Source of the DNA: a bacterium
Lineage (GTDB): Bacteria; Electryoneota; AABM5-125-24; Hatepunaeales; Hatepunaeaceae
Reading direction: 5' to 3'
NCBI GenBank assembly: GCA_021734165.1
Contig: JAIPJL010000008.1
Location: 1 to 51,046 of the forward strand
Length of the DNA stretch: 51,046 nt
Shown: piece after piece, positions 7,258 through 40,112 of the stretch
Layout of the letters: the number at the start of each line of letters is the position of its first letter
How positions within the stretch are numbered: position 1 is the first letter of the stretch
Program-made: the position numbers and the translations under genes
Notes under the pieces: model-generated
The model's database searches: none
The model's input: only the letters and a program-made list of their open reading frames with translations
Told to the model about the DNA's origin: nothing

Positions 7258-7357
7258 TTTTTAAATAATTCAAAGAACTCGAGACGTTTGGCTGCACATT
7301 AGTATAATCGCCTTGTTTGTAAAATGTTGAACACTTTAGATGATTTGGAGAGAGATA

Positions 7358-9880
7358 ATGATTGAAAAAATCCTGTTAATCTTGTTCATCCTGTCAAGTT
7401 TCCTGAATACTGCCTACTGCCAGGAAGATGACCGCATCGACCTTGTATGCGAATTCGAGGATTTCTACGACTTCGAGTCCTTCGCGTACGTCGATACGCT
7501 GCTTTATGTTGCCAACCGCTATGGGCTTTTTGTTTACAGTTACAACGAAAACAACATGGAAGAACCGCCTGTCGAACTCGTCCGTTATCGGACAAGAGGT
7601 GAAACCGAAGCTCTGCTGATAGTGGATTCTCTCTGTTATCTTGCTGACGGATACGCCGGATTACGCATAATCGATATTTCAGATATTTATAACATACAGG
7701 AAATAGGCTATTGCGAAGAAGCTTCGGGTGGTCAGTTTATGCAGCTACAAGACGATATTCTTTACATGGCATGCGGCAGGAACCGTTTCCGTAGCGTTGA
7801 TGTCAGCGATCCGACTGATCCGGTGCTTCTGCAAACCTTTAACCGTGGTTCCGATGATTTCAGGATTGTCGATAACTTGATATATTCTGGCTGCAGCATT
7901 CACACATACATGGAAGTCTTCGACATTACAGATCCTTCTGATATTCAGATTGCAGGTCAGTATGATTTCGGTGAAAGAGGGAGCCCAAAAGGTTTAGAAA
8001 TTCATGATGATTACCTTTACTATGTTACAGATCGTAAATTCAGGATAATATCCATCGAGGATCCTGATAATCTGGAAGTGTTGTATGAGGATGATCATCG
8101 GTCGTGGAACGTAGGTGCCAATACTGTTAGATACTTTGGAGATCATCTATTATATATGCACAGCACTCATATCTGGAATGTAGAAGATCCATATGAACCT
8201 GAGATATTGTTTGGAACAGACTATGTTGAGAGATTCAGTGATTGGTCTGAAGTAAGTGAAACAGCATCTTTTTCATGTTGCAGGACCGGCTTTTACATAT
8301 ACAATATTGAAGATTTAAGGAATGTCGAAGAAATCCATTGGTTACCCTCAGCCTGCGGTCTTTCGGATGTTTATGTGCAGGAAGATATTATGTATGTAAC
8401 GAGTAAATATAAGTATGGTTCTAAATTTGATATTTACAATATAGAAGATATCAATAATCCGGTGAAGATTGGTGAGATTGATTCAACTGAGGGTGCCGGT
8501 CCATTTACGTATGGTTTTGATGGTATCTTTGTTCAGGATGATCTGGCAGTCTTATGGGCTTGGGACGGTCGACATGCCATATTGATTTATTCAGTAGCAG
8601 ATGCCGAACAACCGCGAATACTCAGCGAAATGGATGCAGTTTACCCCAGAGATATTATAGTTGATGGTGATTATATTTACGCTAGTTGTGAGATGGGCGG
8701 AGGATTTAAAGTCATATCCTTCGAAGACCCGGAACATCCGGAAGTAGTCTGGGAATTTCTACCACCTCTGGAGTACCAATTTAGATTCTTCGGTGTTGAT
8801 GTTGCGGGTGACTATGCTTATACTATTAGCAACCCGGGACGTAGTGACGGATGGGAGAGAAATTTCCATGTTTGGAACAAGAGCGATCCTGAGAACCTTG
8901 AACTCATTGGAAGATGTGAAGCTGAAGGTTTTGAAGGGAAGGTTGTTGTTAATGGTGATTATGCTTATGTTACTGCCTTTAGAGGGGGAGGTTTACTATC
9001 GGTGATTTCGATTGAGGATCCTGAAAATCCTGAATTGGTTAATACTATCGAACTGCCACAATATCCAACGGATTGTGCGGTGAAATACGGTTTACTCTTT
9101 TTAACTTTTGATAAGATGGGTTTTTACATATTCAATCTTGAAGATCCATCCGAACCTGAACTTGTAACCTGGTATGATACAGCATATTCCACCGGTGGTT
9201 TCGCATATTATAATCAACTGCATGTGGAAGACAGTTACGTATTCCTGCCAGGTATGATCTACGATGTTTCCAGGATCACCGGACGTTGGAACGTGGAACT
9301 TTCCGCTGAATTCCATAATTTTGGTGAAGTACAACTCAACACCGATTCCACCTTTCAGTTGACAATCAGCAACCTTGCCCAGCAATCCGTTGAGATACTT
9401 GATATATTGACTGACAGCCTTGCCTTCACGGTTGACTTTGACAGTGTTTTAACTATAGACCCAAATGAAGAGGCTTCATTAAATGTCACCTTCACTCCCA
9501 CAGAGCAGCGTAATTACAACGGAATGCTCACCATCCACACCGAACGCCGTGATCTGACAGTTGATTTATTCGGCACCGGCGTCGATCTTTCTGTTGCCGA
9601 TGAAGATATGTTACCTTTGGAGTTTGGGTTGTATCCTGCGTATCCCAATCCATTTAATTCGACCACCACAATCAGGTACGGGCTCGATAAATCGGCCCCT
9701 ACGCGGTTGGCGCTCTATGATCTTTCAGGACGGGAAGTGGTATGTCTCGTTAACGAGAAACAATCGGCAGGACGTTATCAGATCACTTGGGATGCGGAAG
9801 GAAGACCTTCGGGTATGTATCTGCTTCGTTTGAAAACTGAGGATCGTGAGAGGGTAACTAAATTGATACTTATACGTTAA
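7358..9880 (+). CDS. Secreted LVIVD-type beta-propeller protein with T9SS sorting domain
   Basis: The start at ATG 7358 is preferred over ATG 7340 because GGAGAGAG precedes it at good spacing and a clean signal peptide (MIEKILLILFILSS..) results, giving 840 residues. The body to about residue 640 is a run of propeller blades of the LVIVD type, each with a strand motif like YVADRYGLRIID, DPENPELV or SIEDPEN. Next come an ASH-like immunoglobulin domain (FGEVQLNTDSTFQLTISNL) and a C-terminal T9SS sorting domain with YPNPFNSTTTIRY and a final TKLILIR. A TATAAT (about 7301-7306) lies upstream, without a convincing -35. A signal-peptidase-like gene follows 18 bases downstream. Likely secreted and surface-attached; ligand unknown. 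Confidence 0.85.
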   Translation: MIEKILLILFILSSFLNTAYCQEDDRIDLVCEFEDFYDFESFAYVDTLLYVANRYGLFVYSYNENNMEEPPVELVRYRTRGETEALLIVDSLCYLADGYAGLRIIDISDIYNIQEIGYCEEASGGQFMQLQDDILYMACGRNRFRSVDVSDPTDPVLLQTFNRGSDDFRIVDNLIYSGCSIHTYMEVFDITDPSDIQIAGQYDFGERGSPKGLEIHDDYLYYVTDRKFRIISIEDPDNLEVLYEDDHRSWNVGANTVRYFGDHLLYMHSTHIWNVEDPYEPEILFGTDYVERFSDWSEVSETASFSCCRTGFYIYNIEDLRNVEEIHWLPSACGLSDVYVQEDIMYVTSKYKYGSKFDIYNIEDINNPVKIGEIDSTEGAGPFTYGFDGIFVQDDLAVLWAWDGRHAILIYSVADAEQPRILSEMDAVYPRDIIVDGDYIYASCEMGGGFKVISFEDPEHPEVVWEFLPPLEYQFRFFGVDVAGDYAYTISNPGRSDGWERNFHVWNKSDPENLELIGRCEAEGFEGKVVVNGDYAYVTAFRGGGLLSVISIEDPENPELVNTIELPQYPTDCAVKYGLLFLTFDKMGFYIFNLEDPSEPELVTWYDTAYSTGGFAYYNQLHVEDSYVFLPGMIYDVSRITGRWNVELSAEFHNFGEVQLNTDSTFQLTISNLAQQSVEILDILTDSLAFTVDFDSVLTIDPNEEASLNVTFTPTEQRNYNGMLTIHTERRDLTVDLFGTGVDLSVADEDMLPLEFGLYPAYPNPFNSTTTIRYGLDKSAPTRLALYDLSGREVVCLVNEKQSAGRYQITWDAEGRPSGMYLLRLKTEDRERVTKLILIR

Positions 9881-12337: not shown

Positions 12338-14065
12338 CTACCTGATCAGCATGAGTTTCCTTGATTGACTAAACCCTCCCGCCTCCAGCCTCACAAAATA
12401 CAATCCCGAAGCCAGATTACCTGCTGTCAAAGTTGCTGTATGGCAACCCGCCTGTTTAAATCCTTCAAATAGTGTCACAACCTCACGTCCCGAAAGATCA
12501 TAGAGCGCCATCCGCGTAGGGGCCGATTTATCGAGCCCAAACGATATGGTGGTTGTGGAGTTAAAGGGATTGGGATAAGCTTCACACAAACCAAATTCAA
12601 TTGGAATATCAGGTTCGGTGGCTTCTATGGCGCTACTGCTGTCTTCAAGGATGGTGATGTGAAGGTAGGTGGTGTCGCAGTTGCTCTCGTCGCGGCGCTC
12701 GAAGGCGATTAGACGAAACTGCCTGTCCAGACCGTATTCACCCTCATCAGCAGTGATGATCAACTGATTGTCAACGATCTCGCCGTTGGCGTGAATGCCG
12801 TTCCTTACACTGAAACCAAGCAAAGAGTCCGGTGAAACTGATGGCGTTACATAATCGCAGAAATAGCTAAGGTCATAGATCAATGTGTCATGTTCACACA
12901 TAGCAGTATCGGGAATCGGTAGCCAGCGCACCATATCCATGCCGGTCTTAACAAGCCAGAAATTACTACCCCTTACACCCTCACGACCATAATAAAGCGT
13001 AGAGCCACCCAAGGCATAACCGCCCTCGGGAGTTCTGACAACAGCAATGCATTCCGAATGTCGTCCAAACGCTGTACGCCATATTTCATTACCATCGAAA
13101 TCTAATCTGATAAGGGCAAATCTGCCGTTTGTTCCAGCGAGAATTATCCCGCCTTCAGGGATCAATATCACCGAATAACAATGACAAGTACCATCGAAAG
13201 TCCTTGACCAAATTTCTTCACCGGTTGAATCGATACGGACGGCGTACATTAAGTAATCATCATTATCTTCTTCCGAAATAACCGCAGAACCTCCCAATAC
13301 ATAACCACCGTCAGGCATCCTTTCAATTTCTGAAAGCATTTCAAAACGTTCTGTCCCGTAGGTTCGAGACCATTCAACCTCTCCTTCGCTGTCAACCTTG
13401 ATGATGTATCCATCAGCATCACCTGCTCCGAATGAAAAGGTGGTGCCGGAAAGTATAAAACCACCATCCGGCGTCGGATCTACATCCTGAAATTCATCCC
13501 AGTGATCACCGCCGTACCAACGCGACCAGATGACTTCACCATCGCTGTTTATTTTAACCAGCCAACAGTCATTATCACCATTTACGGAATTTCCATAACC
13601 GGCAAGGATGTAGGAACTGTCATCTATGACTTTAACCATGCGGAATTGCTCCGAACTGCCATCGTGATAATTCCGTGACCATTCCATCTCACCATCAGAA
13701 TCGGTTTTAACAACATAGCCGTTTGTACCTTCCTCGTTAGTTGAAGATTCACCTGCAATGATGAAACCGTCATCTACTGTTTGTGCAACAGCCCAAGCCC
13801 ATTCACTAATTTCAGTTCCATAGGTTTTTAGCCATTCCTCTTCACCCAGCGAATCGGTTTTCACCAGACAGAATTGATAATCGTGATCATCATCGTCGTC
13901 GTCATCATATATCCCTGTCAGCGCAAATCCGCCATCAGTGGTTTGAATCATGTAATAGCAGTAATCGGTATTCATACCTCCATAAGTATTAGACCACAGG
14001 GAATCAGGCTGAGCATGGACAATTCCTGACAAGATTATCAGGATTAACAGGATTCTTGTAAACAT
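12338..14065 (-). CDS. Secreted propeller-repeat protein with T9SS sorting domain
   Basis: 575 residues reading leftwards from ATG 14065, with GGAGATTTAA before the start. After a signal peptide (MFTRILLILIILSGIVHA) come about seven or eight repeats of 50 residues with the pattern TxDGGFxLxG, LVKTDSxGExxWSRTYG, typical of bladed propellers in secreted FCB proteins. A spacer of about 100 residues with little recognisable content follows, then a C-terminal T9SS domain (AYPNPFNSTTTISF, ending RKLMLIR). A 47-base stretch encoding the middle of this domain is identical but for one base to the same place in the 7358-9880 gene. Likely exported and surface-anchored; ligand unknown. Confidence 0.85.
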   Translation of the reverse strand: MFTRILLILIILSGIVHAQPDSLWSNTYGGMNTDYCYYMIQTTDGGFALTGIYDDDDDDDHDYQFCLVKTDSLGEEEWLKTYGTEISEWAWAVAQTVDDGFIIAGESSTNEEGTNGYVVKTDSDGEMEWSRNYHDGSSEQFRMVKVIDDSSYILAGYGNSVNGDNDCWLVKINSDGEVIWSRWYGGDHWDEFQDVDPTPDGGFILSGTTFSFGAGDADGYIIKVDSEGEVEWSRTYGTERFEMLSEIERMPDGGYVLGGSAVISEEDNDDYLMYAVRIDSTGEEIWSRTFDGTCHCYSVILIPEGGIILAGTNGRFALIRLDFDGNEIWRTAFGRHSECIAVVRTPEGGYALGGSTLYYGREGVRGSNFWLVKTGMDMVRWLPIPDTAMCEHDTLIYDLSYFCDYVTPSVSPDSLLGFSVRNGIHANGEIVDNQLIITADEGEYGLDRQFRLIAFERRDESNCDTTYLHITILEDSSSAIEATEPDIPIEFGLCEAYPNPFNSTTTISFGLDKSAPTRMALYDLSGREVVTLFEGFKQAGCHTATLTAGNLASGLYFVRLEAGGFSQSRKLMLIR

Positions 14066-27732: not shown

Positions 27733-29853
27733 ATGCTGAAATGCAAAGTATTTACCGTTTGTGTACTAAGTCTTGCGCTGCTGCTAACGGTCGCATTCCC
27801 AACGAATGCGAAAATTATGCCCGATCCCATAACCGGTGAGCTTTCATTGAAAGTTTTACCGAGTCACAGGGCATACACCCCACAGAGGGATGATGAAGAC
27901 GCCTTCTGGACATACCGCTTCATGCACACCGCTGATGGTGGCGCTAATTGGGGTGATATTACAGGAATCGGTGATCTTGGAATGTGGGAGATTGACGGTG
28001 AAGATACGCTTTCTGTTTACGCCAGCGCTTTTGAGGCGTTCGGAACGGTAGTCTGCGCTAACAACATCCTTCACATTATTGCCGTGAATAACGGCTTTGG
28101 TGAGTTTAACCCAATGGAGAAGCTTAATGGCCTTTATCATTATGGTGTCACTGCTGATGGTCAGGTAGCCTGCGATCTAATCGCTGCTCAAGCCGAAGGA
28201 CAAGATTTCCTTTGGTCTGACGCCGGTATCGATGCGGACGGCAACCTCTACGCCATCTGGTGGAATCCTGTTGTTCCCGATGAAGGTGACTCTTACGGTG
28301 AATTATTCGCTTCAAAATCAACCGACGGCGGCGCCAACTGGTCAGATGCATTCCTAGTTTCAGAAGAACTTGATGTTGAATATGCATTTCCCCATATGAC
28401 ATCAATGGTTGGTGAGTATTTCTATGTTATCCATCAGATGCCGAATGCTGAAACCGAAAATTACGACCAGTATGTGATTAAAGTACCTGCAGCACTCGCA
28501 GGTGAAATTGTTAACATGGATCCGGGAGTTGCTTCCGGTACTGAGGTCAGCTATTACACAGCAGCAGTTGATCCTATTGCTCAGGATGTAACTACCGGGT
28601 ATGTTTTTTTCTGTGTCCGCAACGCAGACCTATCTGCTGTTTCCGTAACAGCTACTTCTGATGGTGGCGCAAACTGGACGACCGTTGATGTTGGAGGCGC
28701 ACAACGCTATCCAAGCCTTGTTTTCGATACTGCTGAAGGAATTCCGTGGGTATTCAGCAACGTAGGTGTACCTGTGGATCGTCCTGATACATTAGATTAC
28801 CATACCTGCTGGTATGCCTTTGATGAAAACGGCTATGGCGGTAACCTTTGGACTGATGCTACCAATTATATGCAGGTTGACTATCCGGGTGAAATGCTCT
28901 ACACTGCCGGTGGCGCTTTTACGACCGGAGGTACTCTGATTGCAGGCTGCAACATCTGGGCTTATCCCGATCCCTACATTACACCGATTGGTTACGCAGT
29001 AGTCACTACAGACGACTATGGTGAAAACTGGAGTGAAATGATGCGTCTCTGGGACATCTGGGATACCGGTCTAGAAGGTGGTCCTCTTTCACATTGCCAG
29101 TTGATGGCTGGTCCTGATAATGCAGCCTGGTTGGTCTTCGGTGGTCGCTACGGTTACACAGACCTCGTGCCACCCGAAATCAAAGTGGCTGATATTTCCT
29201 CAGTTATGCTCGGAGAGCCTAAAGTCGTTACCGTAGATGTAATGGACGAAGTCGGTATCTATGATTACGATGGCGAAGGTCCCTGGGATGTTTGGATGGA
29301 CCTCTACCTCGTTACCGAAGATACACTCTGGATGGGAATGTCTGAAATAACCTACGATTCCGTTCATATTGATAATCACGGTCTTGGATGTTATTTCTAT
29401 CATCTGCCTGATTCACTCGGATACATGGTTAATGACTCAACTATGGAAAAACGTGCTCTGTCACCGGGTGACGCTGTCGAGTTTTATGCTTACGGCTGGG
29501 ACGAAGCAGGCAACCTCGGCATGGATGATACTCGCACCTGGACAGTCAATCAGGGTTGGACTGAGGTTAAGGATAATGTTTCTCTTCCGATGGATTTTGA
29601 GATCGGTCAGAATTATCCTAATCCATTCAACAACTCAACAGTGATTCCGTTTACACTCAATCGACCTGCTAATGTTGAAATCTCGGTCTTTGATCTTAAC
29701 GGCAGATTGGTCAGCAAGGTTTACAACGGTAAAGCTGCTGCCGGTAAGAACGTTGTTTCCTGGGAAGGCAATGGAATCACAACAGGTGTTTATATCTACA
29801 CCGTTGAGGCTAATGGTGTGCGCCGGGTCGGCAAAATGACTTTGCTGCGCTAA
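27733..29853 (+). CDS. Secreted Asp-box (BNR-like) protein with T9SS sorting domain
   Basis: 706 residues. Signal peptide to about residue 27. The body has several Asp-box motifs on propeller turns: TADGGANWGD, STDGGANWSDAF, TSDGGANWTTVD and TDDYGENWSE. A presumed immunoglobulin-like part follows (EIKVADISSVMLGEPKVVTV) and then a C-terminal T9SS domain, QNYPNPFNNSTVIPF, ending GKMTLLR. Asp-boxes occur in sialidases and many non-enzymatic propellers; I see no sialidase FRIP motif or catalytic set, so enzymatic function is not claimed. It has a strong promoter, AAAGGAG before the ATG and a strong terminator, so it is an independent and probably highly expressed unit. Confidence 0.85.
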   Translation: MLKCKVFTVCVLSLALLLTVAFPTNAKIMPDPITGELSLKVLPSHRAYTPQRDDEDAFWTYRFMHTADGGANWGDITGIGDLGMWEIDGEDTLSVYASAFEAFGTVVCANNILHIIAVNNGFGEFNPMEKLNGLYHYGVTADGQVACDLIAAQAEGQDFLWSDAGIDADGNLYAIWWNPVVPDEGDSYGELFASKSTDGGANWSDAFLVSEELDVEYAFPHMTSMVGEYFYVIHQMPNAETENYDQYVIKVPAALAGEIVNMDPGVASGTEVSYYTAAVDPIAQDVTTGYVFFCVRNADLSAVSVTATSDGGANWTTVDVGGAQRYPSLVFDTAEGIPWVFSNVGVPVDRPDTLDYHTCWYAFDENGYGGNLWTDATNYMQVDYPGEMLYTAGGAFTTGGTLIAGCNIWAYPDPYITPIGYAVVTTDDYGENWSEMMRLWDIWDTGLEGGPLSHCQLMAGPDNAAWLVFGGRYGYTDLVPPEIKVADISSVMLGEPKVVTVDVMDEVGIYDYDGEGPWDVWMDLYLVTEDTLWMGMSEITYDSVHIDNHGLGCYFYHLPDSLGYMVNDSTMEKRALSPGDAVEFYAYGWDEAGNLGMDDTRTWTVNQGWTEVKDNVSLPMDFEIGQNYPNPFNNSTVIPFTLNRPANVEISVFDLNGRLVSKVYNGKAAAGKNVVSWEGNGITTGVYIYTVEANGVRRVGKMTLLR

Positions 29854-29890
29854 TCAAGTAAGTTATCAGTCGATTATGTCTGAAAATCTG

Positions 29891-29938
29891 CCACGGTATG
29901 CCGGATGCTGTAACTGGCGTCCGGCTGCTGTGGTATTT
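29891..29938 (+). terminator. Terminator after the Asp-box protein
   Basis: A long stem (29891-29908 with 29917-29933, one bulge and a few wobbles) is built on GCCGGATGC/GCGTCCGGC and followed by TATTTTAATTATT. It separates this gene from the surface operon that starts at 30041. Confidence 0.8.
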
Positions 29939-30040: not shown

Positions 30041-33000
30041 GTGAAGGTTGTGCGCAAATTACTTAATGCCCCGATCTTGCTTATTGTTATACTCTCTCTG
30101 TCTTTGAGTAGTATAACATTGGGTGGGGTAACTGGTAAGATCTCCGGAACGGTTGTGGACGCGCGCACCGGTGAACCGATAGCGAGCGCTAATGTGGTTG
30201 TTCTGGGAACACCCTACGGCGCTGCTACGTCGCTTGACGGCGAATTCTATATTATGAACCTCAAACCCGGACAATACACTATAAAAGTGAGTTACGTGGG
30301 TTATGTATCAATTACCCAGGAAGATGTTATAGTGTACGCTGATTTCAATACAACACTTGAATTCAGCCTGGAGTCCACGGTAATCGAGGGTCAGGAGGTA
30401 ACCGTTAAAGCGCCTCGAAAGGTTCTGCGGCACGATGCGACAGCAACTACCAAGCTAACTACAGGCGATGAGATCTACAATATGCCCGTCACAACTTATG
30501 TAGGCGCACTGGCTAATGTCGGTGGCGCTGTTGGTGGCGGAGCTAATATACACATCCGCGGTGGTCGCCGCGGTGAAGTAGCATACCTGATTGACGGCAT
30601 GGAGGTTAAAGACCCTATGAACAATCTGCGTATGCTGAATGTTGGAAGCCCAGCAGTGGCGGAGATGATCGCCCTGACCGGTGGTTTTGATGCAGAGTAC
30701 GGCAACGCTCAATCGGCAATTGTTAATGTTGTCACTAAAGAAGGCTCAAAGGAATACCACGGTAAAATTAAATACTTATGTGACGATTTATCCTCGTCTC
30801 CGGCTAAATTCGAGGATTATACCACAGAGTTCGATGTTCTTGATACGACAGTAACGACCCGTTATCAACCTCCTTCGAGCTACCAGAATTATGATCGTTT
30901 TGAGGGTTCTCTTGGTGGTCCCGAGCCTATTACACAGTATCTGCTGCCAATGATTGGGTTGAAAATTCCAGGTTCTCTGACATTCTTTGCAGCAGCGGAT
31001 ATGACCGGTAGAAATACAAACAGCAATGGTGTAAGGATAAACTCTTCTGACTGGTATAATCATAATATGCTTGGAGGTTTGGCTCTTGATGAAACCCGTG
31101 CTCAGGCATTTATGAATAATAACTTTCAGTTGACCTACCAGATGAATCCTAAGATGAAACTGAAAGCTGCATACAGGTCAACGAAAGAGTGGTACAATAT
31201 TTACACCATGCGGCAGAGTAGGTATTTTCCATATGATGAATTCTCACAGGAAGACATTAATAAAACTTATCAAGCATGGACGGGAAACGATACTACTTAT
31301 ACCTATGTCTTCGAGAAATACAATCCTTCAGAGTTGAATCCCGATGATGACGGTGATGGACTCATCGATGAGGAGGCGCTAAACGGAATCGATGATGATC
31401 TCGATGGTCGAGTTGATGAAGATTTGCAGTGGTATGAATACAATGCAGCGGATCATATACCAACTCGGCGCATTGATGACGAGCAATTTATTCTCGGATG
31501 GGATCAAACTCTCAGCAGAAGTACTTACTATCATTTAAAACTGTCACGCTATAAAGCCTCCCGCAAAATGACCGTTGGAGATAAATCACCGGCGGATTAC
31601 GGTGAATTACAGGAAGAATATACTGATTTGCCGGGAGCTGACGGGAAGTACAATGGTCGTTATGATCCAGGCGAGCCCTTCGTTGACAGGGATGGTGACG
31701 GTACGTGGGACGAAGGCAATCCCTCGAACCTTTACAATAACTATGAAGGTTTTCTGGTCAGCGGTGACGGTACGGAGGACAATATCGGTCAACCTGTACC
31801 ATACTGGTTAAAAGAAGAATCCTACGTTTGGGCAGCAAAGTTTCAGATCACCAGTCAGATTCATCAGAATCATCAACTGCGGGCTGGCGTCGATATGAAT
31901 TACTTCGATCTGAGCCTGATAAATTTGCCTTATCCCTCGATTGACAACCTCGGCACAGGTATTTATACCGACATCTATCATGTCTTTCCCAACGATGGAG
32001 CAGCCTATTTTCAGGACAAGATGGAGTTCAAGGATGTGACGTTCAATCTTGGACTTCGCTTTGATTACTACATGCCTGGTGACCAGGTTCAATACTGTGT
32101 TGCGCTGGATACAACGGTTGCGGATAGAAACAACTATGTGCCTTTTAAGATTCCTGAAAAGTTTAAGGGCTTTGTGTCGCCGCGTCTTGGTGTTTCTTAT
32201 GCAATAACCGAGAACGCATATCTCCATGCACATTACGGACATTTTTATCAAAGACCAGCTTGGGATAACCTTTATGAAGCGGTGAACCAGCCACAAACAG
32301 GCGGAACGCCGAGAATGGGTAATCCCGATCTCGATCCTGAAAAAACAGTCTCTTACGAACTCGGTGTTTCTTGGAATCCCTTTGGTAGTTACCTTGTTGA
32401 TGTGACAGGTTTTATGAAGGACGTCAAAAACTGGATCAACACTCGCGAAGGTAAATACTGGTATCCTGAGAACTTCGGTGAACCTCTGATCGGTTCAAAT
32501 TACGCTGTTTATGACAATCAAGACTATGCCTTCTCGCGGGGAATAGAGTTTAATCTCTCGAAAGAGTACGGTAGTAACTGGTCTGGACGCGTAACTTATA
32601 CCTTAAGCTGGACAAATGCCAAGAACTCATACAACATCAGTACTCAGGCAATTCGAGGCAACTATGTTGAACCACCACTGGCTCTGCCGGCAGGTTGGGA
32701 TCAACGACATTCCATAGTAGCTAATCTTGGGCTGCAATACGGTCCTCATCAACCACTCTTTGGTATTAACGGAGCGCCTGGTGACTGGCAGTTCAATCTG
32801 ATATGGAATGCACGCAGCGGACTGCCATATACTCCCACAGATGCATCAACAACGCTCATCGAAGGGAAATATATGTCTGAGCGCACACCCTGGACTTATG
32901 TAGCAGATCTCAACATTACGAAATATTTCAGAATTGGTAAATGGAGCACCTCAATCTGGCTGGAAGTTCGTAATTTACTCGATGAAAGAAATATCCAGAA

Positions 33001-33181
33001 TGTTGACGACTACTATGGCAGGGTTGGAGCGCCGGAAGCGTTTGACAGCTACACGGGTGAACCGGGATGGGTGAATGATCGTTCATCACCGAATGATTCG
33101 CAGAATCCATTTGCCGGTCCGAATCCTGAAGCGTGGAGTAATCCACGCTATGTGAGGATCGGGCTCGGATTAGAGTTCTGA
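30041..33181 (+). CDS. TonB-dependent outer-membrane receptor with carboxypeptidase-regulatory domain
   Basis: 1046 residues from GTG 30041, with AGGAGG four bases before it. A signal peptide (1-28) is followed by a CarboxypepD_reg-like domain (GKISGTVVDARTGEPIASAN, 31-115), a plug (IHIRGGRRGEVAYLIDGMEV, ALTGGFDAEYGNAQSAIVN) and a 22-strand-type barrel ending NPRYVRIGLGLEF with the C-terminal aromatic residue. Two insertions in loops carry acidic Ca-binding-type repeats (DDDGDGLIDEE, near 434; DRDGDGTWDEGN, near 549). It would import, or with its partners export, a large substrate. It is the first of five cell-surface genes with almost no gaps. No plausible promoter was found in the 100 bases before it. 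Confidence 0.88.
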   Translation: MKVVRKLLNAPILLIVILSLSLSSITLGGVTGKISGTVVDARTGEPIASANVVVLGTPYGAATSLDGEFYIMNLKPGQYTIKVSYVGYVSITQEDVIVYADFNTTLEFSLESTVIEGQEVTVKAPRKVLRHDATATTKLTTGDEIYNMPVTTYVGALANVGGAVGGGANIHIRGGRRGEVAYLIDGMEVKDPMNNLRMLNVGSPAVAEMIALTGGFDAEYGNAQSAIVNVVTKEGSKEYHGKIKYLCDDLSSSPAKFEDYTTEFDVLDTTVTTRYQPPSSYQNYDRFEGSLGGPEPITQYLLPMIGLKIPGSLTFFAAADMTGRNTNSNGVRINSSDWYNHNMLGGLALDETRAQAFMNNNFQLTYQMNPKMKLKAAYRSTKEWYNIYTMRQSRYFPYDEFSQEDINKTYQAWTGNDTTYTYVFEKYNPSELNPDDDGDGLIDEEALNGIDDDLDGRVDEDLQWYEYNAADHIPTRRIDDEQFILGWDQTLSRSTYYHLKLSRYKASRKMTVGDKSPADYGELQEEYTDLPGADGKYNGRYDPGEPFVDRDGDGTWDEGNPSNLYNNYEGFLVSGDGTEDNIGQPVPYWLKEESYVWAAKFQITSQIHQNHQLRAGVDMNYFDLSLINLPYPSIDNLGTGIYTDIYHVFPNDGAAYFQDKMEFKDVTFNLGLRFDYYMPGDQVQYCVALDTTVADRNNYVPFKIPEKFKGFVSPRLGVSYAITENAYLHAHYGHFYQRPAWDNLYEAVNQPQTGGTPRMGNPDLDPEKTVSYELGVSWNPFGSYLVDVTGFMKDVKNWINTREGKYWYPENFGEPLIGSNYAVYDNQDYAFSRGIEFNLSKEYGSNWSGRVTYTLSWTNAKNSYNISTQAIRGNYVEPPLALPAGWDQRHSIVANLGLQYGPHQPLFGINGAPGDWQFNLIWNARSGLPYTPTDASTTLIEGKYMSERTPWTYVADLNITKYFRIGKWSTSIWLEVRNLLDERNIQNVDDYYGRVGAPEAFDSYTGEPGWVNDRSSPNDSQNPFAGPNPEAWSNPRYVRIGLGLEF

Positions 33182-33200
33182 ACCAGGAAGGAGTGAATAT

Positions 33201-35693
33201 ATGAAAAAACCTTTTAGGACACTGACAACAGTAACTCTGTTCCTGGCATTCAGCTTATTTTTAGCCGGTTCAGCGCTTGCGCGCCAAACCGATGTCGGAC
33301 CTGTGCGATACAAATCAGACGCGACAATAGCTGCTGACGTACAAGGCGAAAGAGTACTGTTTGTTCATGATGTCGGGAACGTCCGCATGACGCTCTCGAA
33401 TTGGGGTGAACAGGGAAATCCAGATGGCGTACCCGGATACTTCGGTTTTGAATTTCCACTCGGAGCGGAAACAGATTTTCTTTTCAGTTCCGGTATTTGG
33501 GTAGGCGCTATCAAAAATGGAGAAAAGTTAGTTTCAACCGGTACCGACGGTGATAACGGCACTAACGAATTTTCACCGTCCGTTACAGATTATTCCCATT
33601 ATTACATTGATGGGAGCGGAAACAACCAGCAGGTTTCGATAGAAATTCCAGGACGTGAAATAGAATATCCTTACTATTTAAGGACTTCTAAATCATTAAG
33701 CGTCGTTGAAACCGCTGAAGGCGGTAAGTATTGCTACACCAAAGGCGCCAAAGAAATCGACGATGATGGAGACTGGAATAAAGATACCGACGATCTCGAT
33801 GGTGATGGTAAACCATCATCGAACTGGGACCTCGGTGGAGGTAACATCGGTAGGGACGATGACGGTGACGGACTCGTTGATGAGGAAGCCGCTGATGGTA
33901 TTGATGATGACGGTGATGGACTGACAGACGAGGATACATTCGACGGTGACGATAATGGTGATGGAAATTGTAATTACGATCCTGAACCTCATATCGATGA
34001 AGATCCTGCAGGTGACATGTCCGCAGACTTCGTTGACAATGATTTTGACGGCAAGGTAGATGCTGCTGATGATGATTTCGACGGTGACATTGTACCGGGT
34101 TCGCCAGATGATGATGGTGACGGAGTCTTCGACGAGGACGGAAGCGCACGTGGCACCCAGGAGTTCTTCTGTGTTTATGATGACACCAATGTCGATCTCG
34201 TACAAAATCCCGACAACGACGGGCATACACCGCTTAATGTTCAGGTTCTTCAGAGAACCTATGCCTGGGGTGAAGAATATGCCGCAGATTTCATCATTGT
34301 AGATCTAATCATTCGCAATATTGGTGAAGTTCCAATTGAAGATGTCTATCTTGGCCTGTTCGCTGATCCGGATATTGGCGCTAAAGGCGAAGGCGGTGAT
34401 CCCGCCTCGCTCGATGACTGGAACTACTACTATGAGGGTGTGTTTGATGAAGAAGAAATAAGAATGATGATTCAGGGTGATGATGAGAATGACAACGACG
34501 GTATAAAGCCCGGTGTTTTTGGAATGCAGGTATTGCGTTCACCGGCGCCCCTGGAGGATTTAAATGTTGCCTTCAGGAATTTTGAGCGTGTCGCGGGTGG
34601 CGATCCTGATTTGAACTTCCACAAATACGATATGATCTCAGCAAGTTCTGCTGATAATTCACCTCCTACAACCGCATTTGGTGACTGGCGTTTTCTGATG
34701 GGCTTTGGGCCGAAAACAGGTGGTTGGTTTCCCGGCGAGACGTCAAACATCCTGAAACCGGACAGTTCACTGCCTGTGACGGTGGCTTTTGTAGCCGGTG
34801 AAACAGAGGAAGATGCGCTCAGGAATGCTGTTTGGGCACAGCGCATTTATAATAATGACTTCCAGGGACCTGCCGCGCCTGATCAACCTAAGTTTTCGAT
34901 TACTGCCTACCCAGATCATATTAGGGTTACATGGCAGGATAACGCAGAAGGCTCGAAAGATCCTATCACCGGTGATGAAGACTTCGAGGGCTACGTTCTT
35001 CAAAGGTCTAGCGATACCAATAAATGGACAACCATCCAGCAGTACGACCTCATTAACATATTGGATGATCCAGCTTTCGAACGTGAAAACCTTAATCTCG
35101 GTATGCCCTACGATTTATACCCGGAAGGCTCTAACTGGCGCTGGGTTGTAACAAGTGTTAACAATAACGTCTCGCCGCCCGACACAACCTGGAACAGGGA
35201 GTATTGGATTGATGACTATGACGTACTGCGGGGATGGACATACTACTACATTGTAAGATCGTTCGATCAGGGCGTCAAAGGCGCGGGTGTTTTGATAACT
35301 CCGATTGGCAGAACCTACCAGACGGCAGTTGTTGGTTACACAGAAGAGACTTCCACAATCGGCAACTCCGTTCAGGATGTTTTTGTGGTTCCGAATCCGT
35401 ATCGTGGTGGTCATTCTCAGGAATACAGTGGAGGCTTGGACGAAAGTGGCGTGAAGATATACCCTCGCAAGCTGTATTTTATGAACCTGCCTGCTACCGG
35501 CGCCGAGCTTAATATCTTTTCCTTATCCGGCGATCATATTGTATCACTTGATCATCCTGCCGGAAACGATCTTCTCATCTGGGATATGGAGAATAAATAC
35601 GACCAGGAGATAGTCAGCGGTATTTACTACTACATAGTTAAAGCCGTTGAAGGGAATGATATCAAGATCGACAAATTTGTCGTGTTGAAGTGA
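33201..35693 (+). CDS. Secreted protein with dense Ca-binding Asp repeats and variant T9SS tail
   Basis: 830 residues. Signal peptide (LFLAFSLFLAGSALA), then a beta-rich first part. Residues about 185-315 are packed with DxDxDG-type loops (DDDGDGLVDEEAADGIDDDG and further copies) like thrombospondin type 3 or dockerin calcium motifs. A fibronectin-like region follows. The end is a variant of the T9SS sorting domain: FVVPNPYRGG, SGIYYYIVKA and a last KFVVLK. The start (ATG 33201) has GGAGTG upstream and sits 19 bases after the TonB receptor. It is probably a calcium-dependent surface partner of that receptor, which is inference. Confidence 0.8.
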   Translation: MKKPFRTLTTVTLFLAFSLFLAGSALARQTDVGPVRYKSDATIAADVQGERVLFVHDVGNVRMTLSNWGEQGNPDGVPGYFGFEFPLGAETDFLFSSGIWVGAIKNGEKLVSTGTDGDNGTNEFSPSVTDYSHYYIDGSGNNQQVSIEIPGREIEYPYYLRTSKSLSVVETAEGGKYCYTKGAKEIDDDGDWNKDTDDLDGDGKPSSNWDLGGGNIGRDDDGDGLVDEEAADGIDDDGDGLTDEDTFDGDDNGDGNCNYDPEPHIDEDPAGDMSADFVDNDFDGKVDAADDDFDGDIVPGSPDDDGDGVFDEDGSARGTQEFFCVYDDTNVDLVQNPDNDGHTPLNVQVLQRTYAWGEEYAADFIIVDLIIRNIGEVPIEDVYLGLFADPDIGAKGEGGDPASLDDWNYYYEGVFDEEEIRMMIQGDDENDNDGIKPGVFGMQVLRSPAPLEDLNVAFRNFERVAGGDPDLNFHKYDMISASSADNSPPTTAFGDWRFLMGFGPKTGGWFPGETSNILKPDSSLPVTVAFVAGETEEDALRNAVWAQRIYNNDFQGPAAPDQPKFSITAYPDHIRVTWQDNAEGSKDPITGDEDFEGYVLQRSSDTNKWTTIQQYDLINILDDPAFERENLNLGMPYDLYPEGSNWRWVVTSVNNNVSPPDTTWNREYWIDDYDVLRGWTYYYIVRSFDQGVKGAGVLITPIGRTYQTAVVGYTEETSTIGNSVQDVFVVPNPYRGGHSQEYSGGLDESGVKIYPRKLYFMNLPATGAELNIFSLSGDHIVSLDHPAGNDLLIWDMENKYDQEIVSGIYYYIVKAVEGNDIKIDKFVVLK

Positions 35694-35701
35694 GGTGAAC
35701 A

Positions 35702-37057
35702 ATGAAAACAAGTAAAATACCTGTTCTGACCTTGATCGGTTGTCTGCTTGCAGGCATGTTTTTCATGACCGCCTGCGATGACGAACGTACACCTGTTGCC
35801 TCACCTTCCGATACGACTTACTCTGAAACAATCATCCTGGTGGATACACTGACGTCTAACGGACAACTAATTGATGCTTCTTTCACACTGCTTGATACTG
35901 TGAAAGAAGGTTTTATAAAAGTTTCGTGCTTCTTTGATCCGGAAGAACATCTTGCCGATTTCGAGCGATTTGGCAATGAAATTGATTCGCTTGAAACCGA
36001 CAACGAAGCGCTAAATGTTAACATAATAAACCTCGGTCTCGAATTGAATGAGCTTCCAGGGAGAATTAATAGAATTCCTGCTGATACTACTGCTCTAAGA
36101 GTTCAGATAAATGATCTGGACAGCTTAATCAATTTAGTCCAAGTAAAGATTGACAGTCTTGAGAATATTGATCCAAGAGATGAAGAACAACAAGAATATC
36201 TTGATAATCTGATTGCTGAGAAGGAAGAGTATTTACTTCTTCAGGATGATTATGCAAATCAGATTGACTCTCTAATCGAGCTACGCGATTCACTACGTAT
36301 CCGGAATGAAGTGATCAAAGTAGAAAGAGAAGGAAATAGAGTAACAAAAGCGATGAATCAGGCGCTTATAAACGAGTGTCTTGCTTATCGCGACATACTT
36401 GACGTCTATCTCGATAATCTTTACAGTCTCTCACTTGGTTTTGGTACAGACAGCATTAATTATTATCCTGATGCTATCTTTGTTAATAAAAACGTAGAGC
36501 TTACTGAAACCTATTTCAACTTGGATACAACGTTTTTTGATCCTGCTACCGGTTCAGTTAAAGCAAATGCAATAATGGATCCGGCGCAGATCGATCCCAC
36601 TTGGCTTGAGACAGCTTTATACGATTCACTACTGCTAACGCTTGATGGTTTAACACCGACTCTTGAAATTCTTAAAGCAAACAATGATACAGGTCAAACC
36701 AACTGGGCGGAAATGCGTGCCAATATGCTTGAAGACAGTCTCTCCATGGTTTGGGGTCAGGGAGTATTCCTGGCGCCAGAACCCGATGATACGACTAAAA
36801 TGCGCGGTATTAGTTTCAGGTTTAATCTCGATGAATTTTGGGCTGCTGACAGTGGTTGGACGATTGGCAGACCTTTTATCCATGGTACAAGACCTGAGAG
36901 AGGAACTGCGTATTCAAACCAGTATCCGGTACGTCGTTATCTGTCGAAAATGACTGAAGGAGACCATTCACTTCATTTCAGATTCGGCGGTGAAGCTACC
37001 AATACGAAGATCATAGTAACTCTGTATGTGGTTTACTATGAGAAAGTGGGGCGATGA
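35702..37057 (+). CDS. Coiled-coil lipoprotein, hypothetical
   Basis: 451 residues. The N-terminus is a lipoprotein signal (LLAGMFFMTACDDE, lipid Cys25). Residues about 88-215 are a long heptad-rich helical region (EIDSLETDNEALNVNIINLG, DSLINLVQVKIDSLENIDP), probably a coiled coil. The C-terminal part is beta-rich (RGISFRFNLDEFWAADSG). I recognise no named family. It is separated by 8 bases from the Ca-repeat gene and the next start is within 36 bases, so it belongs to the same operon. Likely attached to the outer membrane and holding or bridging partners. Confidence 0.75.
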   Translation: MKTSKIPVLTLIGCLLAGMFFMTACDDERTPVASPSDTTYSETIILVDTLTSNGQLIDASFTLLDTVKEGFIKVSCFFDPEEHLADFERFGNEIDSLETDNEALNVNIINLGLELNELPGRINRIPADTTALRVQINDLDSLINLVQVKIDSLENIDPRDEEQQEYLDNLIAEKEEYLLLQDDYANQIDSLIELRDSLRIRNEVIKVEREGNRVTKAMNQALINECLAYRDILDVYLDNLYSLSLGFGTDSINYYPDAIFVNKNVELTETYFNLDTTFFDPATGSVKANAIMDPAQIDPTWLETALYDSLLLTLDGLTPTLEILKANNDTGQTNWAEMRANMLEDSLSMVWGQGVFLAPEPDDTTKMRGISFRFNLDEFWAADSGWTIGRPFIHGTRPERGTAYSNQYPVRRYLSKMTEGDHSLHFRFGGEATNTKIIVTLYVVYYEKVGR

Positions 37058-37092
37058 TGATTAAATATATTTCCAAAACAAGGAGAATATCG

Positions 37093-38157
37093 ATGCCCCG
37101 AAACTACATCGTGTTCGGTGTTCTCGTCCTAATGTTACTGATGTTATTCATTAGTAATACTCAAGCAACAGAAGTTCAGAAGGTGGGAACTACAAGTTTA
37201 CAGGTACTGAAAATTGCCACCAATGTTCGTTCCATTGGAATGGGCGAAACTGCCGTTGCCTTTACTGATGACATTCAATCGATATTCTGGAATCCCGCCG
37301 GTTTGATTCATTTAGAGGGTTCTTCGGTTTTATTGTCACAGATCAACATGCCTGCGGATATTCAGTACAACACCTTTGCAGTGGCAAGAAACTTCGGTAA
37401 CAGCAGTTTAGGTTTACATCTTATGTCGATGACTACCGGTGACATGAAGGTTACAACGATTTCTCATCCTGAAGGTACTGGTGAGAATTTCATGTGTTAC
37501 GATATTGTCGCTGGTGTATCCTGGGCTCAAAGGCTTACAGACAGGTTTACTTTCGGTCTTAACCTCAGAGTTGCTAATTCAGGTATTGACGATGCAAAGT
37601 ACACTGGCGCTCTTGCTGACCTCGGGACGCTTTACGAAACATCGTTGAGAACGCTGAAGGTTGGCATGTCGGTACAGAACTTCGGTCCTGACGTGAAATA
37701 TGATGGTAGTTTCCTTGACTACCGCGATCAGGGCAGAAGAAATCGCGAAGAGCCGAATTCAAATAGTTACTCTAGCGCTCCACCACCAACAATTTATCGT
37801 CTGGGATTGTCTGCTAATTTCTTTGAGATGACTGGCATTCCCAAACATCCCGATTTTGATGGTTTGATTGCTTTTGAGATGAGTCATCCCAATGACAATC
37901 GAGAACGGATAAATTTTGGTTTGGAGTTTACATACCTGAAAACCTTAGCGCTTCGCGCTGGGTATAAGGTCAGGTATGAAAATGTCCTCGGTTATGACGA
38001 GGAGAGGTGGACGGGCGGTTTTGGAATCATGCTCCCCTTACCCGGAGAGGTTGATTTCATATTTGATTATGCCTATATGGACTTCGGTCAAATTGCTGAT
38101 GCAACAGACAGTTTTGTAGGCACACCGCATCGTTTTTCAATAATCCTTAATTTCTAA
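37093..38157 (+). CDS. PorV/PorQ-like outer-membrane barrel protein
   Basis: The start at ATG 37093 is preferred to ATG 37054, because AGGAGA (37081-37086) and a clean signal peptide (FGVLVLMLLMLFISNTQA) follow this choice; it gives 354 residues. The sequence has the pattern of the PorV/UPF0164 family of T9SS-linked outer-membrane proteins: LQVLKIATNVRSIGMGETAV, IQSIFWNPAGLI and a barrel ending FSIILNF. In known T9SS, PorV helps release cargo at the cell surface. Finding it between lipoproteins and a TonB receptor suggests a dedicated export or surface-assembly set. Confidence 0.85.
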   Translation: MPRNYIVFGVLVLMLLMLFISNTQATEVQKVGTTSLQVLKIATNVRSIGMGETAVAFTDDIQSIFWNPAGLIHLEGSSVLLSQINMPADIQYNTFAVARNFGNSSLGLHLMSMTTGDMKVTTISHPEGTGENFMCYDIVAGVSWAQRLTDRFTFGLNLRVANSGIDDAKYTGALADLGTLYETSLRTLKVGMSVQNFGPDVKYDGSFLDYRDQGRRNREEPNSNSYSSAPPPTIYRLGLSANFFEMTGIPKHPDFDGLIAFEMSHPNDNRERINFGLEFTYLKTLALRAGYKVRYENVLGYDEERWTGGFGIMLPLPGEVDFIFDYAYMDFGQIADATDSFVGTPHRFSIILNF

Positions 38158-38175
38158 CCCACAGCGGAGGTAAAC

Positions 38176-40020
38176 ATGAAATTTAGAAATCTCCTGATAA
38201 TCGCCCCGTTGCTTCTGATTCTGGCGTTGCTGTTGGGTTGCGAAGCGGAGGATCCAGGAGCGCCACTACCTAATAAGCTGCCGGATACCCGGATTGTAGT
38301 CGCTCCGCTTGAAGGAACGGAGTATGACCATTATGTATCCCCGACAAAGTTGTTTAATATACAATGGTTCGGTAGTGATACTGATGGAATTATCGCAGGT
38401 TATTATGTCCAGATTGATAACGGACTGGCGGTCTGGACAACATCGACAGATAGCGCCATTGCTTTTGAAGCGTCAGAACCTGACTCTAATGATGCATCAC
38501 GTCTGTTGGAGAACCACACAATCAGAATAACGGCTGTTGATGATCTTGGTGATTCAGATCCGACACCAGCAATCCGCACCTTCTGGGCTGTTAATTATAT
38601 GCCGGAAGTCAGTAAATTCACTGCTGATTTTGAAGAAGGTGACACGGTTGGCAGAGGCGTATATTTTGAGATTGAATGGGCTGATCAGAACATCTCTGAC
38701 GCACTCGTTCGCTTGAATATCGATGGATCGCCTGTCACAAATTGGGATTCTCGTCTTAAATTCCAGTTCTGTGAGACAGCTTTGGGAACCATTGTTGAGT
38801 CTATTGATACGATAAATGTTTATCCTGTTGATATTTCTCTCTTACGGGCAGGAAAACGCTCAATCTCAATTGAAGTCAAAGACCTCGGTGGTGCAATAAG
38901 TAATGCGTTTGTCAGAAACGTTTTCGTTGCTGAAGGTGTACTGCCAAAGGTAACAGCATTTACTGCTTCTTACGGAGGCACGGACTTCTTCCCCGACGGA
39001 TCAATATTTTATGACGATAACATCACAACCGTCATGAGTATCCAGGCTACAGCAGAAGATTACTTCGGTATTATTCAGGCATATCGTTACAGAATGCGTT
39101 ATCGTGCTATTGGCGATACGGCAGCCTGGATAGATTGGCCTGATTGGTCGGATGAAACATGGAGCGGTTCAACTATTGAGTTTACCAATCTCAATCTCGG
39201 TGAATATCAGTTCCAGGTGCAGTGTCGGGATTATACCGGCGCTCTGAGTGAAATTTATGAGAATAAGCTCGCTATAGTCACGCCTGATCTTGGAGGAATG
39301 ACTATCTTGATCGTTGATGAAACAGCGGCAGGCAATGATCGACCGGGCAGTCCTGCAGATTCCACAAACGATAAATTCTGGGCAAGAATTACTGCCGATT
39401 TACCGGATGATGGCTGGACTTTATCTTCTGTGGATATTGACTCTGTTGGCAGAATTTCACCGCTGCATGTCTATAATAAAAACATTATTATCTGGCATGC
39501 CGGTGATTATTCGTCCATTCTGCTTAGTGAGAACCTTGGTATTCTTGAGCAATATCTCGAAGCCGGTGGCAAGTTGATCATTTCCGGCTGGAGTTCGTTG
39601 AAAGCATTTGCTGCTGATCCGGCGTCTCTGGATTTAACATTTGAAGCTGATTTTGCAGCGGATTATCTCAGAATCACCGAAGGACACAAAAATCCGGATA
39701 AGGAATTTGCGGGTATTTACGGTAATTCGGAATTTGGTTGTCCGGATCTTACAATTGATCCCGAAAAACTACCTTCCCGTTGGAACGGATTAATGAATAA
39801 CTGCTGGATTATGACGCCTGGGTGGCGTTCAGAAGCCATCTGCACATGGAAAGGACCTGCCGACCCGGTTTCTTCATTTGAGGGAAAAACCTGTGCTGTC
39901 AGAAATTACTCACCGGTTTACCCATGGCGAACAATGATCCTCGGTTTTGAATTATTCTTTGCCTATGAAGATCAGGCAAAGGAGTTCATTGAATGGGCTG
40001 TAACCGATATCAGTCAGTAG
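38176..40020 (+). CDS. Modular lipoprotein with Ig-like domains and a GATase-like C-terminus
   Basis: 614 residues. Lipoprotein signal (LILALLLGCEAED, Cys22). The first 360 residues are several beta-sandwich repeats of fibronectin/PKD style (TKLFNIQWFGSDTDGIIAGY, VRNVFVAEGVLPKV). From about 375 an alpha-beta part begins MTILIVDETAAGNDRPGSP and has NIIIWHAGDYS and LEQYLEAGGKLIISG, reminiscent of glutamine-amidotransferase-like folds seen in secreted FCB proteins; no catalytic Cys-His pair can be identified, so it is probably a binding domain. It is the last gene of the surface operon, 18 bases after the PorV-like gene, and is followed by a terminator. Confidence 0.75.
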   Translation: MKFRNLLIIAPLLLILALLLGCEAEDPGAPLPNKLPDTRIVVAPLEGTEYDHYVSPTKLFNIQWFGSDTDGIIAGYYVQIDNGLAVWTTSTDSAIAFEASEPDSNDASRLLENHTIRITAVDDLGDSDPTPAIRTFWAVNYMPEVSKFTADFEEGDTVGRGVYFEIEWADQNISDALVRLNIDGSPVTNWDSRLKFQFCETALGTIVESIDTINVYPVDISLLRAGKRSISIEVKDLGGAISNAFVRNVFVAEGVLPKVTAFTASYGGTDFFPDGSIFYDDNITTVMSIQATAEDYFGIIQAYRYRMRYRAIGDTAAWIDWPDWSDETWSGSTIEFTNLNLGEYQFQVQCRDYTGALSEIYENKLAIVTPDLGGMTILIVDETAAGNDRPGSPADSTNDKFWARITADLPDDGWTLSSVDIDSVGRISPLHVYNKNIIIWHAGDYSSILLSENLGILEQYLEAGGKLIISGWSSLKAFAADPASLDLTFEADFAADYLRITEGHKNPDKEFAGIYGNSEFGCPDLTIDPEKLPSRWNGLMNNCWIMTPGWRSEAICTWKGPADPVSSFEGKTCAVRNYSPVYPWRTMILGFELFFAYEDQAKEFIEWAVTDISQ

Positions 40021-40061
40021 AGTAAGGTCAATTAAGCTCAACAATAGTAAAAAAGAAATTG

Positions 40062-40088
40062 CGCCCTGCCATAACTTACGGCAGGGCG
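40062..40088 (+). terminator. Terminator of the surface operon
   Basis: CGCCCTGCC (40062-40070) pairs with GGCAGGGCG (40080-40088), a 9-bp GC stem with a 9-base loop, followed by a U-rich but mixed tract (TAGTTGTTTAGT). It lies about 40 bases after the last stop codon. Confidence 0.7.
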
Positions 40089-40112
40089 TAGTTGTTTAGT
40101 CAGTAACAATAC

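Follow-up and report, generated by a model that had tools for sequence, protein, structure and literature searches.

Outer-membrane barrels of the PorV, PorQ and PorP types are shuttles of the type IX secretion system (T9SS), and TonB-dependent receptors are importers. In P. gingivalis, PorV anchors PorU and PorQ anchors PorZ, and both PorU and PorZ retain their CTDs (PMC5562754, PMC11285876). T9SS substrates of type B are collected at the translocon by cognate FadL-type barrels of the PorP/SprF kind, which then anchor them (PMC12618676, PMC9143113).

Here we describe a gene cluster that brings together a T9SS CTD-barrel pairing, a surface lipoprotein and a TonB receptor; each part is known, and we found no description of the combination. 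The cluster lies in a window of 51,046 nucleotides, contig C94 in a draft genome of 3.4 Mb (86 % complete) from the phylum Ca. Electryoneota. Five ORFs of the window are called A to E, and the gene preceding A is called Z. No published description of the cluster was found in the open-access literature, subscription papers being outside the scope of the search.

The secreted protein B and the barrel D resemble the PorU:PorV and PorZ:PorQ pairs of P. gingivalis in that a protein with a PorZ-like CTD, putatively exported by T9SS, is matched with a barrel of the PorV/PorQ family. However, B has neither the propellers of PorZ nor a sortase domain, and the B:D pair, one of several copies that exist beside a canonical set, goes together with a TonB receptor and a lipoprotein. 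The type B substrates of F. johnsoniae are likewise encoded near their own FadL-type barrels, with some orphans; in contrast to these, the CTD of B is type A/PorZ-like, D belongs to the PorV/PorQ family, and the cluster further includes a TonB receptor and a lipoprotein. SusCD(E) systems share with the cluster a TonB-dependent receptor with a CarbopepD_reg extension and surface-exposed partners, but the cluster has no SusD, and its proposed capture protein, B, would reach the surface by T9SS and is matched with a barrel. In Myxococcus xanthus, Oar has the CarboxypepD_reg, Plug and TonB barrel domains of A; it differs in acting in PopC export, and a PorV-like partner of Oar is not described (PMC6434023). 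The BAM canopy of Bacteroidota (BamG/BamH/BamM) also combines a barrel and surface lipoproteins, of which one binds calcium; D, however, is not BamG, and the cluster is without BamA.

The module seems to connect two surface machineries of bacteria that are usually studied separately. Co-inheritance of a T9SS barrel and a TonB receptor links protein secretion with energised transport in a way that can be tested, and suggests a third kind of CTD-barrel pairing. It also points to a possible function for many unassigned PorV-family genes outside Bacteroidota, and to a first hypothesis for surface genes that are near-universal in an uncultured phylum.

Genes and transcript signals of the locus

An earlier note on this DNA had described five genes in tight order: a TonB receptor with acidic loops, a secreted repeat protein with a variant T9SS tail, a coiled-coil lipoprotein, a PorV-like barrel, and a modular lipoprotein with a GATase-like part. 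We verified the five ORFs at the coordinates given there, all on the + strand, spaced by 19 bp (A/B), 8 bp (B/C), -4 bp (C/D) and 18 bp (D/E). They form a same-strand unit bounded by terminator-like hairpins, and the receptor, the repeat protein and the barrel are as the note had them.

Gene A (30041..33181) begins with GTG at 30041, preceded by AGGAGG. The gap between Z (27733..29853, +) and A holds a terminator-like hairpin (29889..29935, +; 20 bp, -34.7 kcal/mol) followed by UAUUUU, and a stem-loop is found 3' of E (40057..40095, +; 14 bp, -25.4 kcal/mol). Hairpins are also present in the Z-A gap of 14 of 16 other loci, with the U-rich tail missing in some, and 3' of E in 16 of 17 other type 1 loci, which are those of the window's own arrangement. 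Because most relatives are alike in having hairpins in the gap and after E, A to E are probably one transcript and Z a separate one. The gap hairpins of relatives are unlike each other in sequence, so Z and A to E may be expressed at different levels. An Rfam search gave no match.

Protein A carries a CarboxypepD_reg N-terminal extension, a TonB-box-like motif, a plug and a barrel, and on this composition of plug, barrel and motif is a TonB-dependent transporter. In Pfam, the barrel (PF00593) was matched with 103.5 bits and CarbopepD_reg_2 was also found; the plug (PF07715) scored 22.5 bits, just under its cut-off of 23.9. Since the TonB-box-like motif is kept in all 17 orthologues of A, energisation by TonB is likely. 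A is well below the cut-off of the SusC/RagA model (66.8 bits against 368 for TIGR04056), no protein of the SusD family was found among A to E and Z with Pfam and NCBIfam profiles, and a PDB sequence search with A returned no match.

The secreted protein B (33201..35693, +) consists of an N-terminal part with the DGDG repeats (residues about 187-313), in which seven to eight DxDxDG-type motifs lie around residues 198-308, a conserved middle (about 306-535), a possible FnIII domain (about 560-690) and, at about 728-830, a divergent T9SS sorting domain that is PorZ-like and ends in KFVVLK. For B, AF2 gave a low-confidence model, too poor for use (pLDDT 50), and a PDB sequence search with the B profile gave no match. 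Two long antisense ORFs (33688-34230 and 33816-34226, - strand) overlie the repeats and are probably a by-product of repetitive codons.

Gene C (35702..37057, +) encodes a coiled-coil lipoprotein with lipobox Cys25 and no useful Pfam match; an assignment to LmuB by PADLOC was rejected, as it looks like a coiled-coil match. No full-length family was found for B, C or E in Pfam and NCBIfam.

E (38176..40020, +) is a lipoprotein (Cys22) with an Ig-like stalk (Y_Y_Y) and a C-terminal alpha/beta domain at residues about 374-614. Its AF2 model is good overall (pLDDT 82), showing Ig-like domains and an alpha/beta C-terminal half. A Foldseek search with E recovered Ig and FnIII domains only, at low TM-scores and without informing on the C-terminal half, and a PDB sequence search with the E profile had no match. 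The lipoprotein character and modular build proposed in the note were confirmed. The GATase-like part has thin sequence support, DUF4159 being matched in just one of 19 relatives. A class I glutamine amidotransferase would have a catalytic Cys at the nucleophile elbow, but E has no conserved Cys beyond the lipobox, so it is no Cys amidotransferase.

The preceding gene Z encodes a secreted protein with a type A sorting tail (residues 628-699; TIGR04183, 41.3 bits, cut-off 23) and weak BNR/Asp-box matches. Three further proteins with T9SS type A tails are encoded in the window at 3806-6499, 7340-9880 and 12338-14065, one of them with LVIVD repeats.

Conservation, duplication and fusion of the module

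The order, strand and spacing of Z-A-B-C-D-E are kept in 18 further genomes from three families of Ca. Electryoneota, a set found with B as the sole search key, while amino-acid identity in these type 1 relatives falls to about 26-30 % for Z and E. Among the 18, a contig end cuts three loci short (L052, L054 and L059), A is split in L046, and a different ORF stands where Z would be in L050 and L053; some of the breaks are frame errors. In type 1 loci that extend far enough 5' of A, Z is nearly always its direct neighbour. Downstream neighbours vary, and genes for B12-binding, YebC and RuvC proteins follow only in the window's own family.

Over 291 genomes, the B profile found members in 37 of the 39 genomes of the phylum and in 33 of 252 outside it. 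Profiles built from the module genes led to additional loci, in which A, B, D and E stand together in at least four other gene orders. Type 2 (A-X-B2-D2-Z2-C2-E2) is spread across the phylum, with Z2 missing between D and E in families f3 and f8. Type 3 (B-Z-E-A-D) occurs in family f6 and in five outside genomes (G039, G082, G186, G227 and G252). Four other genomes outside the phylum have the order A-B-D-E (G041, G046, G189 and G194), and G118 has A-B-E-Z-D. Of the B loci, 46 are flanked by 6 kb or more on each side; among these, A, D and E are all found on the same strand within five genes in 31, A and D in five, and none of them in eight.

The window's genome carries a type 2 paralogue on contig C40 (3028-17133), which comprises A2 (cut by the contig end), a beta-helix lipoprotein, B2, D2, the T9SS-tailed Z2, a TPR-like lipoprotein and E2; a 585-residue protein with a membrane-like N-terminus and no Pfam match is encoded 3' of E2. 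In a genome from outside the phylum (G039, contig C10, 918-18800), A-B-D-like units stand in tandem.

Trees were built for A, B, D and E, and each recovers types 1, 2 and 3 as separate clades (support 0.75-1.0), even where one genome carries two types. The same type clades in all four gene trees indicate that the module has duplicated as a unit. Patristic distances among the four trees correlate at 0.91-0.97 (no correction for how closely the species are related), and the agreement of the paralogue clades carries more weight.

Further evidence for a connection between the surface proteins comes from four genomes (G005, G008, G015 and G031), in which the N-terminal part of B is fused to the C-terminal half of E and followed by a type A T9SS tail (L049 at 7736, L055 at 9172, L057 at 8603 and L058 at 7419). 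As judged from its sequence, the fusion links B with E and puts both outside the cell, although the four cases may stem from few events. In L055 and L058 the fusions sit within runs of other T9SS-tailed genes.

The earlier note had inferred one uncharacterised system and had proposed a search of relatives for the five-gene order, with genes standing apart speaking against it. Since the order persists in the 18 further genomes, this challenge was mostly passed, and permuted recurrence, type clades, fusions and hairpins likewise favour one system. Its composition, however, is not that of the note. We exclude C from the core, because no homologue of C is found in other locus types and C is clade-specific to type 1, and Z had been missed; the core comprises A, B, D and E together with the T9SS-tailed Z. 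On these comparisons the idea of one uncharacterised surface system holds, and the system extends beyond the phylum.

The sorting domain of B and the barrel D

The tail of B falls under the cut-off of every CTD model tried. In the window's B, the T9SS type A model (TIGR04183, cut-off 23 bits) had no match and CHU_C (Pfam) reached E=1e-3, under its cut-off. Among 24 B relatives, TIGR04183 gave weak matches in seven, CHU_C gave three matches, all sub-threshold, and no T9SS type B sorting domain was found with NCBIfam. With the PorZ model, 17 of the 24 gave a match of the last 80-120 residues to its CTD part (best E=2.9e-8), and these matches outnumber those to TIGR04183 and PorU. It is only the CTD part that matches (best 32.6 bits), whereas full-length PorZ, with two propellers and a CTD, has a cut-off of 260. 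B proteins of every type share a conserved terminal motif of the GKFVIIK kind.

D (37054..38157, +) is an outer-membrane barrel of the PorV/PorQ family (NF033709, 172.7 bits, cut-off 90), and matches PorV of structure 6h3i with E=1.8e-6. It scores below the equivalog models of both PorV (NF033710, 66.6 bits, cut-off 250) and PorQ (NF033711, 94.2 bits, cut-off 220). Because a PorZ-like tail is found together with a PorV/PorQ-family barrel, B and D fit a CTD-barrel pairing, and the proposed export of B by T9SS, with D as its dedicated shuttle or anchor, is well grounded.

All 55 B genes that stand beside D have the tail characteristic of B. A further 24 have no D nearby; four of these, all B-E fusions, have a type A tail and 20 have the characteristic tail (tail type against presence of D, Fisher p=0.007, without correction for relatedness). 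For these 20, D must be encoded elsewhere or there must be none. They resemble the orphan substrates of F. johnsoniae, which share a barrel encoded elsewhere (PMC12618676).

The window's genome encodes a PorV beside PorU on contig C73, and this PorV-family gene scores above D for the family model. PorQ-like genes (the best, on C61, with 133 bits) and PorZ-like genes are present as well. With this canonical set in place, B:D is an addition and not a replacement, apparently an extra pair. In the window's draft genome, 86 % complete, no SprA was found; it was over its cut-off in 36 of the 41 genomes of the set. Outside the phylum, PorU was strong in 30 of 33 B-positive genomes, compared with none of 33 sampled B-negative ones, a pairing that partly reflects lineage.

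Possible functions of the module

We hold with moderate confidence that the locus is one outer-membrane surface module in which B is held by D and acts with A and E, probably in uptake. B would exit via T9SS and is predicted to retain its divergent PorZ-like CTD, which would dock on D in the manner of PorZ on PorQ and PorU on PorV. Together with the surface lipoprotein E, B may form the outer face of a complex with the TonB-energised receptor A. Such an assembly would capture a ligand, most likely for uptake; B and E would stand to A as SusD/SusE do to SusC. Transport by A would be inward, uptake being the usual role of TonB-dependent receptors. Z would be a T9SS-secreted accessory, propeller-like here and a beta-helix in the paralogous operon. 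Accessory proteins vary by copy: Z has weak BNR repeats, and X2 and Z2 contain right-handed beta-helices. This hints at ligands that differ and may be glycans.

Two other functions can be proposed for an intact module. A, B, D and E could be an extracellular platform that helps to fold, glycosylate or anchor other proteins of the surface, much like the BAM canopy or the attachment complex of T9SS. The BAM of F. johnsoniae has an extra barrel, BamG, which carries the surface lipoproteins BamH and BamM, the latter with calcium ions (PMC12611786); the B of the type 2 module is near-universal in the phylum (37 of 39 genomes), and the tail of B resembles that of PorZ, a member of the attachment complex. 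However, D scores just 14 bits against BamG (NF053685, cut-off 250), A looks like a complete TonB-dependent transporter, and accessories that vary by copy are what different ligands would lead one to expect, so we regard an envelope role as unlikely. Somewhat less probable still is a module for export, in which an Oar-like A aids the exit of B, Z or another protein and D and E are exit or anchoring factors. Oar, a TBDT with the same CarboxypepD_reg-Plug-barrel build, is needed for PopC secretion in M. xanthus (PMC6434023), and A shares its N-terminal domains and a TonB-box-like motif; but this domain layout is also common in importers, and with T9SS present and T9SS-type tails on B and Z a second exit route would be unneeded.

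The earlier note had linked A to B through calcium, supposing that DGDG loops common to both bind the ion and join the proteins. Acidic motifs are indeed found in both A and B in type 1, including three DxDxDG-type loops in the A of the window, and the spacing of those in A is kept across that type. In type 2, however, the receptor has 9-13 acidic motifs and B has none, and in type 3 the receptor has none or one and B has one to four. The motifs of A and B do not co-vary although the module is intact, so the likeness of the loops stands for the window and type 1 and fails as a property of the system; we consider a calcium-linked complex very improbable. We give even less weight to the idea that these surface genes merely adjoin and do not work together. 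The genome and its relatives encode many PorV-family barrels and T9SS-tailed proteins, of which some would be adjacent by chance, but recurrence in permuted order, duplication of the unit and fusion all argue against it, and identical orders in distant genomes contradict it.

Elsewhere in the window's genome, on contig C37 (5049-7173), the gene for a 339-residue protein with D-rich repeats precedes that for a barrel with weak likeness to D; the two may be another, distant pair.
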